Below, in pieces: positions 3,042 to 9,770 of a stretch of DNA of 61,970 nt (the first letter of the stretch is position 1; each line of letters begins with the position of its first letter). The DNA comes from Actinomycetota bacterium (GTDB taxonomy: Bacteria; Actinomycetota; Actinomycetes; Propionibacteriales; Propionibacteriaceae). Under the pieces are notes generated by a model. That model searched no databases. It was not told the DNA's origin and saw only the letters and a program-made list of their open reading frames with translations. The stretch spans positions 1 through 61,970 of the forward strand of contig JAIUOT010000039.1 in the NCBI GenBank assembly GCA_020161015.1, in the 5' to 3' direction. The position numbers and the translations under genes are program-made.

Positions 3042-4061
3042 TCAGCGCGTCGGGGTGCCGATCCGGTCGAGGACGGCGCGTGCGGTCTCGGAGTCGATCA
3101 CCAGGTCGGTGGCGACGCCCGCGCGCAGGGCGCCGACGACCGCGGCCACGCGGGCGGCGTCCGCGGCCACGCAGATCCGCCGCGGGATGCGACGCAGCTC
3201 CGCAGGGGTGGGGCCGGTCGCCCGCCGGTTGAACGGGATGTCGGCCCACGTCCCGTTCTCGCGCAGCAGGACCGTGCAGACGTCGCCCACCACGCCGTCC
3301 AGGGCCAGCCGTGCGACGTCCGCGTCGTCGAGGTAACCCGCCGAGTACACCTCGCAGCGGGTCCGCGCCTGGAGGCTGCCCACGCCGAAGACGGCGATGT
3401 CAGCCCGCGCCCTGAGGTCGAGCACCTGCTGCACCGAGCGCTCCTGCCACATCACGTCCCTGGCCGCGGGCTGGTCGAAGAAGGCGGGCAGGGGGAACAG
3501 CGCGAGGTCGGCGTCGAAGGCGTCCGCGAGCGCGCGCAGGATCTCGCCCGTGTACGACAGCCCGAAGCCCCGAGGGTTCGCCCCGCCGTTGAGCTGGACG
3601 GCCGTCGCCCCGGTGAGCGGACGCCGCGAGACGTGCTGCACCACCCGGGACACCGTCGCGCCCCAGGCCACCCCGATGACGTCGTGGTCGCCGACCGCCT
3701 CGGTCAGCAGGCCACCGGCCATCTTCGCGACCTGGTCGAGGCGGGCGGTCTCGGTGGCGCTGGCCCGCACCGCCACCAGGTGCACGCGCACCCCGAACGC
3801 GTCGGCCAGCGCGAGCGCGGGCGAGGAGGTCGAGCCGGCGTGGTCGGCCAGGGTGATGCGCACGAGCCCCTGGTCACGGGCCTCCCGGAGCAGCCGCGAG
3901 ACCGTCGAGCGCGAGAGCATCAGCTGCTTCGCGATGGACTCCATCGTCTCGCCCTGCACGTAGTACCGGGACGCCGCCTGGTAGCGGTCCTCGTAGCGGA
4001 CGTCCGGGGACGCGGGCGCCGCCGCCGGCGGTGCCGGGCGGTTCGGACCACCCCTGGCCAC
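3042..4061 (-). CDS. SorC/DeoR-family transcriptional regulator of the RuBisCO module
   Basis: 339 residues. Residues 41-62 (ESIAKQLMLSRSTVSRLLREAR) form the SorC-type helix-turn-helix. The remainder is the sugar-binding domain (IGVAWGATVSRVV, VQLNGGANPRG, AVFGVGSL, GDVCTVLL). Family members bind phosphorylated sugars and control sugar operons. GTG 4061 is the start: it lies 4 bp past the RuBisCO stop and the frame has no better start near the domain. The two genes are therefore co-transcribed and probably coupled. Proteobacterial RuBisCO operons normally use the LysR regulator CbbR, so a SorC protein here is unusual. A pentose phosphate or ribulose bisphosphate effector is inference. Confidence 0.85.
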   Translation of the reverse strand: MARGGPNRPAPPAAAPASPDVRYEDRYQAASRYYVQGETMESIAKQLMLSRSTVSRLLREARDQGLVRITLADHAGSTSSPALALADAFGVRVHLVAVRASATETARLDQVAKMAGGLLTEAVGDHDVIGVAWGATVSRVVQHVSRRPLTGATAVQLNGGANPRGFGLSYTGEILRALADAFDADLALFPLPAFFDQPAARDVMWQERSVQQVLDLRARADIAVFGVGSLQARTRCEVYSAGYLDDADVARLALDGVVGDVCTVLLRENGTWADIPFNRRATGPTPAELRRIPRRICVAADAARVAAVVGALRAGVATDLVIDSETARAVLDRIGTPTR

Positions 4062-4065
4062 GTCG

Positions 4066-5463
4066 CTACCCCGGCTCGCCCGGGCGGAGCCGATCGCGCC
4101 AGCCGGGGTAGAGCCGGTCGGCGTCGGCGGGGAAGGACGCGAAGGCGCGGGCGAACTCGTGGTGGGTGGCGGCCCACTCGACGGGATCCGCGCCGGCGGC
4201 CCAGCAGTCATGGGCCTGGCGAAGCGAGCGTGCGCCGGCCGCCGGGCCGTCCAGGTGGCCGTAGGCGCCACCGCCGGCGGTGTTGAGGACGTTCGCGTGG
4301 CCCAGGTTGGCGAAGAAGCCGGGCAGCCGCAGGGCGTTCATGCCGCCGGAGACGATGGGCGCGGTCGGCCGCATGCCGTGCCACTCCTGGTGGAACGCCG
4401 GGCCGGTGTAGGAGTCGCGCTCGCAGATGTAGGCGATCGCCCGGTCGTCGGCGCTGCCCTCCATCTTGCCGTGGCCCATGGTGCCGACGTGGATGCCGGA
4501 GGCGCCCTGGAGGCGGGCCATCTTGGCCAGCACGTAGGCGGTGTACCCGCGCCGCGACGACGGGGAGGTGATCATGCCGTGGCCGGCCCGGTGGTAGTGC
4601 AGGAACTGGTTGGGGAACCAGCGCCGCGCGGTGGTGACCATGCCGGGTCCGCCGACGAAGCCGTCGACCAGGAAGGCGACCTTGTCCGCGTCCGGACCGA
4701 ACGCGGACAGGATGAACTCGCCGCGCGCGACCATCTCGGCGTGGTCGTCTGCGGTGATGTTGGCACTGAACAGCTTCGCCTCACCGGTCGCGTCCATCGC
4801 CCGCTTCATCGCGTCGTAGACCAGCGGGATCGTCTGCCTCATCGGCGCGAAAACCTGGTTGCCCTGCGGCTCGTCGTTCTTGATGAAGTCCCCGCCCAGC
4901 CAGAACTCGTAGGCCGCCCTCGCGAACGGCTCGGGACGAAGCCCCAGCTTGGGCTTGATGATCGTGCCGGCGATGTAGCCCCCGTCCACGACCGGGCGTC
5001 CCAGGGTCCGCCACAGGTCGGCGATGCCCCTTGCCGGGCCGTCGAAGAGCTCGATCACCCTGCGCGGCACCCAGAAGTCGTACATCCGGGCCGACTCGAT
5101 GTCGCCCATGCCCTGGTTGTTCCCGATGGTCAGCGTCAGGAACGACACCAGCATCATCCGGCCGTCGGTGATGTTCCGGTCGAACAGCTCGATCGGGTAC
5201 GCGATCCGCACCTCGCCGGACGCCTCGTCGGCCCGGTAGACGATCGCGTCCACCCCGCGGGTGAAGTCATCGGTCGTGGACACCTCCACGTTGGTGCCCG
5301 TGGACGACTCGGCGGCGAAGTGCGCGGCCGCCTCCACGAAGCCGACCCCCGGCTTCGGCCTCAGCCAGTACGCGCACAGCACGTGGCGGCCGCCGGCGAT
5401 GAGCTCGTCCTCGCTGATCCCCAGGTCGGCGTACCTCCGGGACTGGTCCACAATGACTCCCAT
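4066..5463 (-). CDS. cbbM: ribulose-1,5-bisphosphate carboxylase, form II
   Basis: 465 residues, strikingly like Rhodospirillum-type form II RuBisCO along its whole length ([42 protein letters not shown]). All key residues are present: carbamylated lysine K195 with D197 and E198, K170, N115, H291, R292, H325, loop-6 K333 (GHGKMEG), S372, and E52 in the N-terminal domain. It should fix CO2 onto ribulose bisphosphate as a soluble dimer or oligomer without small subunits. ATG 5463 gives the standard N-terminus (DQSRRYADL). It diverges from the FBPase-like and phosphoribulokinase genes and is followed by the SorC regulator. No small subunit, activase (CbbQ/CbbO, CbbX) or carboxysome gene is nearby. 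It is not a RuBisCO-like (form IV) protein. Confidence 0.95.
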
Positions 5464-5500
5464 CACGCTCGAAAAGGGCGCACGGAAAAGGAATACCGGC

Positions 5501-5518
5501 GCACAATTGTTCACGGAA
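5501..5518. promoter_or_regulatory. candidate SorC operator, cbbM side
   Basis: Copy 1 of the 18-bp motif, 38 bp from the cbbM ATG. It contains the palindromes ACAATTGT and GTTC-ACG-GAAC, as expected for a dimeric or tetrameric regulator, and would overlap the cbbM promoter. Confidence 0.5.
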
Positions 5519-5620
5519 CCGGCCACCCGGGGAACGAATTCCACACACCGGAGCGACCGTCCTCGCTGCGCCAATGCTAATGTCTGCGACTCGGCGCACG
5601 GAACGCACCGGAGGCGGCTT

Positions 5621-5638
5621 GCACAATCGTTCACCGAA
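5621..5638. promoter_or_regulatory. candidate SorC operator, kinase side
   Basis: Copy 2 of the 18-bp motif, differing from copy 1 at two positions (T to C and G to C), in the same orientation and 120 bp away, upstream of the FBPase-like/phosphoribulokinase transcription unit. The spacing would allow DNA looping between the two sites. Confidence 0.5.
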
Positions 5639-5749
5639 TCCCCGGCCCGGTGGCGTCATTGCGCAATGTGCGTCCGCGGACGCCCTTGTCGCTCCCCGGG
5701 TCAATAGCCTTTCGCCACCTGCCCACGACCGAACCCGAAGGAGCGTCCC

Positions 5750-6790
5750 GTGGCGGCCCGGACCCTCACCCAGCACCTGCTCGACGTCGGCAGCGACGCC
5801 CGCGGTGCCGGCTACGCGCACATCCTGAGCGCGGTCTCGGTCGCGGTCAAGCTGACCGCCGCCACCATCAGCCGGGGTCCGCTCGTGCTCGAGGGCGCCA
5901 CGGCGACGGCCGGGGAGGACCGCCACGTGCGGCTGCGCCTGCGACGCCTGGCGACGGGCGCCCTCCTCGCGCAGACCGCGGGGATCCACCAGCTGGCGGG
6001 CATCTCGATCGCGGGCACGCCCCGGCTGCACCAGGTCTCACCCGAGGGCCGCTACCTGCTGCTGATCGAGGCCATGCACGGCATGTCCAACCTCGCCGAC
6101 AACCTGCCCGTGGGTTCGGCGTTCTCGCTGCTCGAGCGCACCGGTGACGGGCCCTGTACCCCCGCGGAGTTCCTCCAGCCCGGCCACCGGCAGGTCGCAG
6201 CGGGCATCGCCCTGTACGGCCCCCGCACGGTGCTCGTGATGACCACCGGGGACGGGGTGGACGGCTTCACCCTCGACCGCGACGTGGGCAACTTCGTGCT
6301 CACCCACCCGCGGGTGCGCGTGCCCGCCGACGCCCGCATGTTCGCCATCAACGCCACCGAGGCGCCGTTCTGGCCGGCCCCGGTGAAGCGGTACGTCGAG
6401 GAGTGCATGCGCGGCACCACCGGCCCGCGGGGGCAGGACTTCAGCATGCGCTGGAACGCGTCCGCGCTCGTCGGGGCCTACCGGGTGCTGGTGAGCGGCG
6501 GGCTCTTCCTGGCCCCCCGTGTGGAGCGCCCGGGTGCGTGGCTGTCGCCCCTGCTGCACAACGCCGCGCCCCTGGCCCTGCTGGCCGAGCAGGCGGGGGG
6601 CGCCGCCAGCACCGGCACCGGCCGCGTGCTGGACGTCGTCCCGGTCGACCTCGGCAGCCGGACCCCGCTGTTCCTGGGCAGTACCGCGGAGGTGGAGCGG
6701 CTGGAGCGCTACGTCGCCGACCACGCCAGCGGAACCGACCGGGAGTTCTCGCACCCGCTGTTCCACAACCGCACCCTGTTCGCCGACTGA
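5750..6790 (+). CDS. class I fructose-1,6-bisphosphatase homologue lacking the metal site (probable pseudoenzyme)
   Basis: 346 residues, clearly homologous to CbbF-type FBPase, most plainly from residue 141 on (FLQPGHRQVAAG, GDGVDGFTLD, FAINA, GPRGQDFSMRW, SGGLFL, LAEQAGGAAS, LDVVPVDL). The catalytic metal ligands are gone. The DPLDGSSN motif is EAMHGMSN (E107, H110), the ASEE motif is AGIS (83-86), and the YE of the last ligand motif is HN (H270, N271). Substrate-loop features such as FAINA and the MRW arginine remain. The frame is intact and conserved, so this is not simple decay. A structural, regulatory or altered catalytic role is inference. GTG 5750 has AAGGAG upstream; phosphoribulokinase follows after 19 bp. 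Confidence 0.8.
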   Translation: MAARTLTQHLLDVGSDARGAGYAHILSAVSVAVKLTAATISRGPLVLEGATATAGEDRHVRLRLRRLATGALLAQTAGIHQLAGISIAGTPRLHQVSPEGRYLLLIEAMHGMSNLADNLPVGSAFSLLERTGDGPCTPAEFLQPGHRQVAAGIALYGPRTVLVMTTGDGVDGFTLDRDVGNFVLTHPRVRVPADARMFAINATEAPFWPAPVKRYVEECMRGTTGPRGQDFSMRWNASALVGAYRVLVSGGLFLAPRVERPGAWLSPLLHNAAPLALLAEQAGGAASTGTGRVLDVVPVDLGSRTPLFLGSTAEVERLERYVADHASGTDREFSHPLFHNRTLFAD

Positions 6791-6809: not shown

Positions 6810-7709
6810 ATGTCGCGCAAGCACCCGGTGATCGCCATCACCGGCTCCTCGGGAGCCGGCACGAGCACCGTCACCGACACCTTCCAGCAGATCTTCCAGC
6901 GGGAGGGCATCACCGCAGCCATCGTCCACGGCGACTCGTTCCACCGCTACGACCGCGCCGAGATGAAGCGCGTGCACGCGGAGGCCGAGGCCGCCGGACG
7001 GGCGGCGATGAGCCACTTCGGCCCGGAGGCGAACCTCTTCGAGGAACTCGAGGGCCTGTTCCGCCAGTACGGCGAGAACGGCACCGGCAGCGTCCGCAAC
7101 TACGTCCACGACGAGGGCGAGGCGCTGCTGTTCTCGCAGCCGCCCGGCACGTTCACACCCTGGCAGGAGCTCGCCCCCGGCACGGACCTGCTCTACTACG
7201 AGGGGCTGCACGGGGCCGTCCAGACCGACACGGTGGACGTCGCCCGGCACGCCGACCTGCTCATCGGCGTGGTGCCCACGATCAACCTGGAGTGGATCCA
7301 GAAGCTGCACCGCGACCGCACCAAGCGCGGGTACTCCACCGAGGCGGTGACCGACACCATCCTTCGCCGGATGCCCGATTACGTGAACTTCATCTGCCCC
7401 CAATTCACGAAGACCCACATCAATTTCCAGCGGGTCCCGATCGTGGACACCTCGAATCCCTTCGCGGCGCGCTGGATTCCGACGGCTGATGAATCCATGG
7501 TGGTCATTCGATTCGCCGATCCTCGCGGAATCGATTTCCCCTACCTGCTGTCGATGATCGACGGTTCGCTGATGTCGCGGGCGAACAGCATCGTGGTGCC
7601 CGGCGGCAAGATGGAGCTGGCGATGCAGCTCATCCTGACGCCGCTGGTCTGGCGACTCCACGACACCGCGAGCAGGGAACGCTCCGGGGTCGGCAGCGGC
7701 GTCGGCTGA
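6810..7709 (+). CDS. cbbP: phosphoribulokinase, proteobacterial class I type
   Basis: 299 residues, very close to the octameric proteobacterial phosphoribulokinases. It phosphorylates ribulose-5-phosphate with ATP to ribulose-1,5-bisphosphate, the RuBisCO substrate. Visible are the P-loop GSSGAGTST (12-20), GDSFHR with catalytic D42, R49, YEGLHGAV, the LEWIQKLHRDR motif and NFQRVPIVDTSNPF. GGAGG (6801-6805) precedes the ATG. It forms one unit with the FBPase-like gene and diverges from cbbM. About 7375-7560 uses more A/T-ending codons (GAT, GAA, AAT, ATT, CGA) than the rest, hinting at recent transfer or selection on a conserved core. Its stop is only 10 bp from that of the convergent psuG. 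Confidence 0.95.
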   Translation: MSRKHPVIAITGSSGAGTSTVTDTFQQIFQREGITAAIVHGDSFHRYDRAEMKRVHAEAEAAGRAAMSHFGPEANLFEELEGLFRQYGENGTGSVRNYVHDEGEALLFSQPPGTFTPWQELAPGTDLLYYEGLHGAVQTDTVDVARHADLLIGVVPTINLEWIQKLHRDRTKRGYSTEAVTDTILRRMPDYVNFICPQFTKTHINFQRVPIVDTSNPFAARWIPTADESMVVIRFADPRGIDFPYLLSMIDGSLMSRANSIVVPGGKMELAMQLILTPLVWRLHDTASRERSGVGSGVG

Positions 7710-7720
7710 CCCTCCGGAGC
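7681..7720. terminator. bidirectional terminator between phosphoribulokinase and psuG
   Basis: GCTCCGG (7681-7687) pairs with CCGGAGC (7714-7720), extended inward by GGT/ACC after small bulges. It spans the stop codons of two convergent genes whose ends are 10 bp apart, so a shared bidirectional terminator is the likely role. There is no T-run. Confidence 0.4.
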
Positions 7721-8637
7721 TACCGGGCGTAGGCGACGGCGATCGCAGCGCCCAGCGCGGCGTTGTGCTTGACAAGGGCGATGTTCGCCCGCAACGACTC
7801 CCCGCCGGACAACTCGACGATGCGTCCCAGCAGGAACGGCGTGATCGCCGCGCCGGTGATCCCCCGCTGGTCGGCCTCGGCGACCGCCTGCTCGATCAGG
7901 CGCCCGATCTCCGCCTCGGGGATCTCGTCCTCGACCGGGATCGGGTTGGCGACGACGATGCCGCCGGCGAGCCCGAGCGACCACTTCGCACGCATCGCGC
8001 GCGCCACCTCCTCCGCGCTGTCCAGCCGCAGCGGTGAGCGGAAGCCGCTGGAGCGGGAGTAGAACGAGGGGAAGTCGTCGGAGCCGACCGTGACCACGGG
8101 CACGCCGAGCGTCTCGAGCACCTCCAGGGTGCGCCCGATGTCGAGCAACGACTTCACCCCCGCACTGACCACGGCGACGTCGGTGAGGCTCAGCTCGGTC
8201 AGGTCGGCCGACACGTCCATCGAGTGCTCCGCCCCGCGGTGCACCCCGCCCAGGCCGCCGGTCACGAACACGTGGATGCCGGCGAGCGCCGCCAGCCGCA
8301 TCGTCGAGGCGACGGTGGTGGCGCCGTGCTCGGCCCGCGCGATCACCACGGGCAGGTCACGGATGCTCACCTTCCGCACGTGCTCGTCGGAGCCGAGCAG
8401 GTCGAGCTCGTCGTCGTCCAGCCCGATCCGGGGGACGCCGTGCAGGACCGCGATCGTCGCAGGGACGGCGCCACCGTCGCGGATGATCTGCTCGACCTCG
8501 CGGGCGGTCTGCACGTTCTTCGGGTACGGCATGCCGTGGCTGATGATCGTCGACTCCAGTGCGACCACGGGACGGCCGGACGCCAACGCGTCCCGCACCT
8601 CCGGGGCGACGGCGAGCAGGGGATGCGGTTCGGTCAT
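7720..8637 (-). CDS. psuG: pseudouridine-5'-phosphate glycosidase
   Basis: 305 residues. PsuG reversibly cleaves pseudouridine 5'-phosphate to uracil and ribose-5-phosphate. Signatures include VALESTIISHGMPYP with E28, TTVASTM, FVTGGLGGVHRGAE, D141 in DVSADL, and the Schiff-base lysine K162 in SAGVKSLLDI, plus the C-terminal GGESLRANIALVKHNA. GAGGAG precedes the ATG, 11 bp after the kinase stop, so the two form an operon. Convergent to phosphoribulokinase: the ribose-5-phosphate released could be isomerised and enter the RuBisCO branch (inference). Confidence 0.95.
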   Translation of the reverse strand: MTEPHPLLAVAPEVRDALASGRPVVALESTIISHGMPYPKNVQTAREVEQIIRDGGAVPATIAVLHGVPRIGLDDDELDLLGSDEHVRKVSIRDLPVVIARAEHGATTVASTMRLAALAGIHVFVTGGLGGVHRGAEHSMDVSADLTELSLTDVAVVSAGVKSLLDIGRTLEVLETLGVPVVTVGSDDFPSFYSRSSGFRSPLRLDSAEEVARAMRAKWSLGLAGGIVVANPIPVEDEIPEAEIGRLIEQAVAEADQRGITGAAITPFLLGRIVELSGGESLRANIALVKHNAALGAAIAVAYAR

Positions 8638-8648
8638 GGTCGGGCTCC

Positions 8649-9770
8649 TCATGGTTGTCGGGTGTCGGCGAGGGCCGCGGCGAACGCGACCCCGAGGTCG
8701 GGGCGGACGGTGTGGCCGCTGGCCACGGTGAGAGCTGCGGCGAGGTGTCCCTGCCGGGCAGCCTCCGCAGGGCTCTCCCCCGCCAGCAGCCCGTGCACGA
8801 ACCCGGCAGTGAGGGCATCGCCCGCGCCCGTGACATCCGCGACCTCTGCGGGGACGGCGTCCAGTGCGACCACGTCGTCCGCGCTGACCAGCAGGCTGCC
8901 CCCGGCGCCCCTGCTCACCCACACGTGGGCCACGCCGCGCGCGTGCAGGCCGCGGGCGGCGGTGACGATGTCGGCGGTGGTGTCGTCCACCGGGCGCCCG
9001 ACGAGGGCGGCCAGTTCGTCGACGTTCGGCGTCACCGCGTACACCGGCAGGTCCGGACGCAGCAGCGGGGCGATCCGTGCCGCCTTGGCGACGCTGACCG
9101 GTTCGAGCACCACGGGGACGCCGCCCCCGCCGGCCACCGCCAGCACCCAGGCCGCCACGGGCACGCCCACGTTCCCGTCGAGGACGGCGACACCGGCGCG
9201 GGCGATCAGCTCCTGGGACCGGCTCAGCGCGGCCACGTCCATGGCGTCGGTGGCGGCGAAGTCCGACAGCCCGACCACCAGCTCGCCGTCGGAGTCCAGG
9301 GCGGCGAGGTAGCTGCCCGTGGGGTGGGGGCTGGTGACGACGTGGTCGACGTAGACCCCCGCCTCCGAGGTGATCGCGAGCAGGTCCCGTCCCGCGGTGT
9401 CGGCACCGACGGCCGCGACGAGGTGCACGCGCCCGCCGAGGCGGGCCACGCCCTCCGCGATGTTGCGGCCGACGCCGCCGGGCGTGCGTCCGACCACGGC
9501 GGGGTTGGAGGTACGCAGCCGGACGGTCGCCACGCTGCGGGCCTTGATGTCCCACGCCGCCCCGCCGACGACGACCGCCCAGGGCTCACCGCGCAGGATG
9601 TAGCCGCGGCCGACGATCTCGCCCTTCTGGCTCAGCGCGGACAGGGCGACCGCGACGGCTCCCTTGCTGGTGCCGAGGCTGCGGGCGAGCCCGGCCGCGT
9701 CGAGCAATGGCTGCGCCCGGAGCAGGGCGAGGATCTCGCGCTCCCGCGGCGTCAAGGTCACACTAGGCAT
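8649..9770 (-). CDS. psuK: PfkB-family pseudouridine kinase with N-terminal helix-turn-helix
   Basis: 373 residues. Residues 1-60 (TPREREILALLRAQPLLDAAGLARSLGTSKGAVAVALSAL) are a winged-helix DNA-binding domain. From ~65 a PfkB ribokinase-type kinase follows, with TPGGVGRNIAEGVARLGG near the start and the catalytic DVTGAGDALTAGF near the end. The same HTH-kinase fusion is found in E. coli YeiI-type proteins. Next to psuG, the likely substrate is pseudouridine, phosphorylated at O5', and the HTH suggests it also senses substrate and controls its own promoter. No clear Shine-Dalgarno precedes the ATG. Another nucleoside as substrate is possible. Confidence 0.85.
   Translation of the reverse strand: MPSVTLTPREREILALLRAQPLLDAAGLARSLGTSKGAVAVALSALSQKGEIVGRGYILRGEPWAVVVGGAAWDIKARSVATVRLRTSNPAVVGRTPGGVGRNIAEGVARLGGRVHLVAAVGADTAGRDLLAITSEAGVYVDHVVTSPHPTGSYLAALDSDGELVVGLSDFAATDAMDVAALSRSQELIARAGVAVLDGNVGVPVAAWVLAVAGGGGVPVVLEPVSVAKAARIAPLLRPDLPVYAVTPNVDELAALVGRPVDDTTADIVTAARGLHARGVAHVWVSRGAGGSLLVSADDVVALDAVPAEVADVTGAGDALTAGFVHGLLAGESPAEAARQGHLAAALTVASGHTVRPDLGVAFAAALADTRQP

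Follow-up and report, generated by a model that had tools for sequence, protein, structure and literature searches.

In class I FBPases (Fbp/CbbF), the departing phosphate is held in place by metal ions. The conversion of ribulose 5-phosphate into 3-phosphoglycerate needs only phosphoribulokinase (PRK) and RuBisCO, and PRK is controlled by CP12, a small, disordered redox protein which is non-catalytic. It has been reported that, in the Calvin cycle of some symbionts, a PPi-dependent PFK (PPi-PFK) replaces both FBPase and SBPase (PMC4287430), and reported pseudoenzymes include pseudophosphatases as well as catalytically dead paralogues which activate partners (PMC10211241, PMC5106787, PMC5201418). 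Form IA or II RbcL has been reported for Propionicicella and Propionicimonas (PMC12999727), and a Propionicimonas isolate and Tessaracoccus lapidicaptus are reported to have RuBisCO along with further genes of the Calvin cycle (PMC13286885). The window may come from the family of these genera, the Propionibacteriaceae. No FBPase pseudoenzyme was found in the literature searched, outside which most subscription journals lie, and the statement of a preliminary description of this DNA, that no such system has been described, stands within that literature. Here, we describe a homologue of class I FBPases, encoded between the genes for RuBisCO and PRK, which on sequence grounds is very probably a conserved pseudoenzyme of this family and is termed pseudo-FBPase below.

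The window, i.e., the whole stretch of 61,970 nucleotides that was analysed, belongs to a draft genome of 3.67 Mb in 65 contigs, with a completeness of 96.5%, and includes the following features:

3042..4271, minus strand: sugar-binding (SorC/DeoR-like) regulator, conserved part 3060-4004
4066..5463, minus strand: form II RuBisCO large chain, divergent (NCBIfam, locus comparison)
5464..5749, no strand: divergent promoter region in which GCACAATYGTTCAC occurs twice, at 5501-5514 (+) and 5621-5634 (+), possible operator
5750..6790, plus strand: pseudo-FBPase of 346 aa, a class I FBPase homologue lacking the metal site (ORF, Pfam, alignment)
6810..7709, plus strand: PRK, starting 19 bp past the pseudo-FBPase stop

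The pseudo-FBPase gene starts with GTG and, as previously claimed, its frame is open from 5750 to 6790. Both partners pass their NCBIfam equivalog cut-offs (PRK, 497 vs 362 bits; RuBisCO, 843.7 vs 489 bits). The listed ORF of the regulator overlaps the end of the RuBisCO gene, so its true start is probably nearer 4004. The pair of GCACAATYGTTCAC copies is a possible operator of this regulator; at least two copies arise in the window in 7 of 100 shuffles, a single near-copy lies at the matching place in G142, and none was found within 3 substitutions in G181, G116 and G008.

Next to the PRK gene, on the minus strand, lie a PsuG-like protein of the Indigoidine_A family and a PfkB-family kinase (7720-8658 and 8649-9770), a pair that probably serves the breakdown of pseudouridine to ribose 5-phosphate. 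Together with a transaldolase in G142, this pair hints at the use of ribose or nucleosides, and sugar-uptake genes were read by eye near G142 and G181; nevertheless, such a theme is not a rule of the flanks, having left no trace at G116, G170, G176 and G189 (8 neighbour proteins compared with Pfam) or at G086 (read by eye). Two short ORFs on the minus strand (2073-2444 and 2457-2939), which by eye resemble pieces of a single alpha/beta hydrolase read in different frames, are possibly a broken gene.

With regard to family assignment, the protein scores above the Pfam cut-offs for both FBPase (91 bits) and FBPase_C (99.7 bits), so that gene counts by Pfam would enter it as an FBPase. It also matches 8 NCBIfam models of class 1 FBPases, but reaches the cut-off of none (best 252.8 vs 349 bits). 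Its best solved match is 7k74 (E 7.5e-57, residues 24-325). An earlier structural model (pLDDT 51.9) was set aside; the one retained (pLDDT 71.3, pTM 0.77), of low confidence in the pocket loops 112-118, 223-236 and 259-272, retrieved only FBPases among the best 50 matches listed by Foldseek against the PDB. Homology over both domains and the fold thus place the protein in the class I FBPase family; the equivalog score and the acidic metal ligands of the enzyme are both missing, the latter being represented by R65, A88, G89, E107, H110 and N271. The alignment with E. coli FBPase (2gq1) concerns E89, D110, D113 and E275, plus D66 and E90, which we take to be the metal and catalytic residues, and all six are changed (D66 to R65, E89 to A88, E90 to G89, D110 to E107, D113 to H110 and E275 to N271) at these places:

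5942..5944, plus strand: Arg65 codon, for E. coli Asp66; R in 12/12 clade proteins, D in 36/36 others
6011..6016, plus strand: Ala88-Gly89, for E. coli Glu89-Glu90 (alignment)
6068..6091, plus strand: EAMHGMSN, residues 107-114, for DPLDGSSN; His110 in 12/12 (alignment)
6539..6562, plus strand: Trp264 to Asn271, for GRLRLLYE; Trp264 and Pro267 in 12/12, Asn271 in 8/12, Thr in 4/12 (alignment)

The alignment bears out two replacements named in the preliminary description, DPLDGSSN by EAMHGMSN and the final YE by HN (LLHN for LLYE). Its reading of ASEE as AGIS was right in that both glutamates are lost and wrong in register, since ASEE aligns with SIAG (residues 86-89) and AGIS lies three residues upstream; likewise, it named five of the six positions and missed the replacement of Asp66 by Arg65.

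The altered site is shared by all 12 full-length proteins of a clade of relatives, which excludes chance or a sequencing error. In these proteins R65, G89 and H110 are invariant, position 88 is A in 10 and S in 2, position 107 is still acidic (E in 10, D in 2) and position 271 is N in 8 and T in 4. Among 36 other class I FBPases, a set that takes in the partly altered proteins of G024 and of G647 (see below), the D66 and D110 columns hold D throughout, and the others are nearly uniform: E in 35 and D in 1 for E89; E in 33 and K, D and Q once each for E90; D in 35 and N in 1 for D113; E in 35 and G in 1 for E275. The substrate contacts are partly altered. The 12 clade proteins all retain the 6-phosphate Arg (E. 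coli R238), and 10/12 retain N206; the loop residues G111 (12/12) and N114 (11/12) are likewise kept, and the polar residues R65, R66, S86, H110, N181 and N236 are fixed in the clade. Other contacts have changed: the phosphate-loop Ser115 is Met in the window protein and is changed in 8/12 clade members, Ser being found in the other 4; Tyr259 is Ala in the window protein and A, V or I in the clade; and the region of Lys269 corresponds to Trp264.

An FBPase match was found in 32 of 197 genomes of the family. The 12 clade proteins, including that of the window, to which the relatives are 59-72% identical, come from three genera of one actinobacterial family (5, 3 and 4 genomes; the relative at L002 is from Actinobacteria bacterium HGW-Actinobacteria-5), and a thirteenth member is an 87-residue fragment in G169 that shows the signature of W, P and LLHN. 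In the tree, the 12 form a monophyletic group (UFboot 99) whose stem measures 0.95-0.99 substitutions per site; their pairwise identity falls as low as 53%. A further 20 family genomes have a match, and in 18 of these (all but G171 and G010, which have fragments) the protein was examined by motif; all 18 keep the acids of the DPLDGSSN type except G071, with N for the second D, and G024, whose FBPase shows partial site changes. This second, partly altered FBPase of G024 (L043, 7950-9068, minus strand; DQLDGARN, SDK for SEE, FLSP) lies beside a sugar-binding regulator and PRK, and falls outside the pseudo-FBPase clade in the tree. Outside the family, no clade member was found among 391 sampled genomes from the order, 396 from the phylum, 394 from the class and 30 from the genus. 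In the order sample, 10 full-length members score 593-625 bits with the clade profile and the best non-member 361; in the class sample, 4 of the 11 other matching genomes (G830, G959, G1041 and G1048) were judged by score alone.

The sister lineage comprises G1098 and G647, which belong to a different family within the class; the group of all 14 proteins has a UFboot of 100. Its FBPases (L129, 7936-8979; L130, 7689-8711) keep D66, E89, D110 and D113 and have lost two of the six acids (E90 to Q, E275 to G). They adjoin a PRK that is 72% identical to that of the window and a RuBisCO that is only 32-33% identical, and which is therefore not form II; these genomes also carry GlpX. The two sister genomes suggest a stepwise loss of the metal-site acids, and this partly altered lineage offers a testable path by which the site may have been lost.

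In 12/12 clade loci, a form II RuBisCO gene adjoins that of the pseudo-FBPase, and PRK follows the latter on the same strand after 8-29 bp, with a GGAG-type stretch at every locus. The RuBisCO gene is divergent in the 5 genomes of the window's genus, and in the 7 of the other two genera it lies upstream in collinear orientation. No gene other than these three recurs at all the clade loci, so a cbb cluster with further cycle genes is not shared by them; in the genus of the window, the normal-site FBPases of G080, G050 and G066 lie in longer shared clusters (names of the extra genes read by eye). In the trees of the two partners, support for grouping the 12 loci is weak (PRK 71, RuBisCO 48), and these trees do not, therefore, establish a common origin of the three-gene set. 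In G170, a heliorhodopsin-family gene (L034, 5812-6813, minus strand; Pfam 206.6 bits) adjoins the RuBisCO module. Residue 40 of PRK (6927-6929), just ahead of GDSFH, is His in 11 clade members and Arg in 1, vs Glu in 16/16 comparison PRKs, a possible matching change in the kinase.

The analysis of dN/dS that the preliminary description had called for reveals purifying selection. For the clade pseudo-FBPases, a one-omega maximum-likelihood (ML) codon model yields 0.057, against 0.065 in a set of 12 FBPases from this family with a normal site; the values are 0.034 for the clade PRKs, 0.029 for the clade RuBisCOs and 0.040 for the comparison PRKs. All gapped columns were removed from the codon alignments, leaving 337 codons for the clade FBPases, 289 for the PRKs and 455 for the RuBisCOs. 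NG86 ratios, inflated by the codon bias of high-GC genomes and set aside in favour of the ML model, have a median of 0.37 over all 66 clade pairs, compared with 0.40 for the comparison FBPases. The ratio is 0.12, 0.16 and 0.11 in the three pairs of sisters, and 0.47-0.49 in other pairs among the six of lowest dS, for example G000-G181. Furthermore, no inner stop interrupts any of the 12 frames, and the fixed new residues show synonymous turnover, R65 being written in five codons, G89 in four and H110 in two. Among residues invariant in comparison proteins (16 FBPases, with G024 left out, 16 PRKs and 4 RuBisCOs), the pseudo-FBPases keep 40 of 71 in all 12 members and have lost 12 in all 12, the clade PRKs keep 110 of 121 and have lost 2, and the clade RuBisCOs keep 256 of 304 and have lost 6. 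The old site is not a significant island of conservation within the clade: its six acid positions average 0.889 against a mean of 0.738, and 7% of random sets reach that level, so that the case for a new pocket from conservation is correspondingly weaker. The protein is homologous to an enzyme family, lacks its catalytic residues and is retained by selection without decay, as a pseudoenzyme would be; monophyly, purifying selection, intact frames and the fixed RuBisCO/FBPase/PRK neighbourhood in 12/12 uphold the earlier preference for this over decay; decay and ordinary FBPase function are both unlikely.

The FBPase reaction itself is probably supplied by other means. In the window's own genome, where the search for a separate FBPase proposed earlier was carried out, PF00316 has one match only, and GlpX and PF01950 have none. 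More generally, within draft genomes and for the class I, GlpX and archaeal types, 11/12 clade genomes have no second class I FBPase and no GlpX (G142 has one of the former and a partial match to the latter), and 12/12 have no archaeal-type FBPase (PF01950). Both kinds of class I FBPase occur in G142 and G169, the latter with only the pseudo-FBPase fragment, and in the genus sampled, 17 of 30 genomes have no class I FBPase match at all. For the 11 genomes that have no second class I match, the idea that the protein serves an active class I FBPase of its own cell was rejected. The likely substitute is a divergent PFK, matched in 11/12 clade genomes (all except G181). GGDDT and PKTIDND, marks of PPi-dependent PFKs, are present in the six examined, and this PFK is probably of the PPi type.

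Taken together, these data are best explained by a conserved pseudoenzyme that would bind a sugar phosphate with no metal involved, leaving it uncleaved, and would act as a regulatory or scaffold partner of the PRK encoded by the next gene; we give this statement as a whole a probability of roughly 0.45. The pocket is proposed to be metal-free and non-hydrolysing because R65 and H110 are basic while the 6-phosphate Arg is kept: the two basic residues may stand in for the charge of the metal, and a phosphate pocket with no need of metal and no hydrolysis is the simplest reading of two acids turned basic. Phosphatase activity would be absent, the ligand would be a sugar phosphate and PRK would be the likeliest partner, since it is made from the next gene in 12/12; what would be controlled are the few steps leading from ribulose 5-phosphate via RuBP to 3-phosphoglycerate. 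The roles put forward in the preliminary description, as a regulator of the kinase or of RuBisCO or as a sensor of a sugar bisphosphate, would be compatible with these data. Several findings count against the preferred explanation. Other substrate contacts (Y259, the Lys269 region and, in 8/12, Ser115) are changed too, so sugar-phosphate binding may itself be lost; the old site does not stand out significantly in conservation within the clade; PRK is nearly unchanged and shows no obvious new regulatory surface; the omega of the pseudo-FBPase exceeds those of PRK and RuBisCO; and the structural model is weak in the pocket loops. A more specific version, which is less probable, is that the charge-inverted site (Asp to Arg, Asp to His) makes the protein a metal-free sugar-bisphosphate sensor gating PRK, and thereby RuBP supply, in a three-gene RuBisCO module. 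If this were true, the cycle's own phosphatase would have been turned into a control of RuBP supply; if a sugar phosphate is sensed, the protein would show both how a phosphatase of the Calvin cycle turned into a regulator and how RuBisCO and PRK operate as a pair in bacteria in which no FBPase is recognised.

Among the alternatives, the one that retains most weight, though distinctly unlikely, is that the protein, without any small ligand, serves only as a scaffold that keeps PRK and/or RuBisCO complexed or helps them to fold. The constant three-gene linkage and the loss of several substrate contacts would suit it; the retention of the 6-phosphate Arg (12/12) and Asn (10/12), G111 and N114, and the fixation of three new residues at the old metal site, would not be expected of it. 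Somewhat less probable still is a new enzyme, in which R65, R66, H110 and N236 would form the core of a rebuilt pocket that acts, without metal, on a different phosphorylated substrate, such as a side product of RuBisCO: no known catalytic motif is recognised and no solved relative with such chemistry appears, judged by names, among 43 matched sequences, although the clade-fixed polar residues and the strong constraint (omega 0.057) are what this would predict.

That the protein is still an FBPase or SBPase, with an alternative or residual metal site, is improbable: five of the six acids are gone, one having been reversed to Arg and one to His, there are genomes of the same genus with no class I FBPase match (17 of 30), and the probable PPi-PFK can do the reaction. 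In its favour, this is the sole class I FBPase homologue found in 11/12 genomes, GlpX is missing from as many, and the acid at position 107 is kept. Very improbable, finally, is a relic in slow decay, carried along by its operon, which could draw on the higher omega than that of its partners, on the long stem and on the NG86 median of 0.37, inflated by GC bias as this is; against it, no inner stop has arisen in 12 genes although identity falls to 53%, omega is not above that of normal-site FBPases, and synonymous codons have turned over at the fixed new residues. The preferred reading remains a probable metal-free pseudoenzyme partner of PRK.

In comparison with known systems, the window protein has full-length homology and a fold in common with the solved class I FBPases (7k74, 2gq1, 1cnq), from which it differs in the six changed metal-site acids and the partly changed substrate contacts, and it occupies the same operon place before PRK as the normal-site FBPases of the family. 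CP12 is similar in being a non-catalytic controller of PRK, if the preferred reading holds, and different in being an unrelated, small and disordered redox protein. Reported pseudoenzymes are likewise conserved family members without catalytic residues (PMC10211241, PMC5106787, PMC5201418); as described there, they have folds other than that of FBPase, and the dead paralogues activate an active paralogue, whereas 11/12 clade genomes have no such paralogue among class I FBPases. The Solemya velum symbiont resembles these bacteria in that RuBisCO and PRK are present and the FBPase step has probably moved to a PPi-type PFK; however, its FBPase gene is reported to be absent (PMC4287430), while in the clade described here the gene is kept with an altered site.
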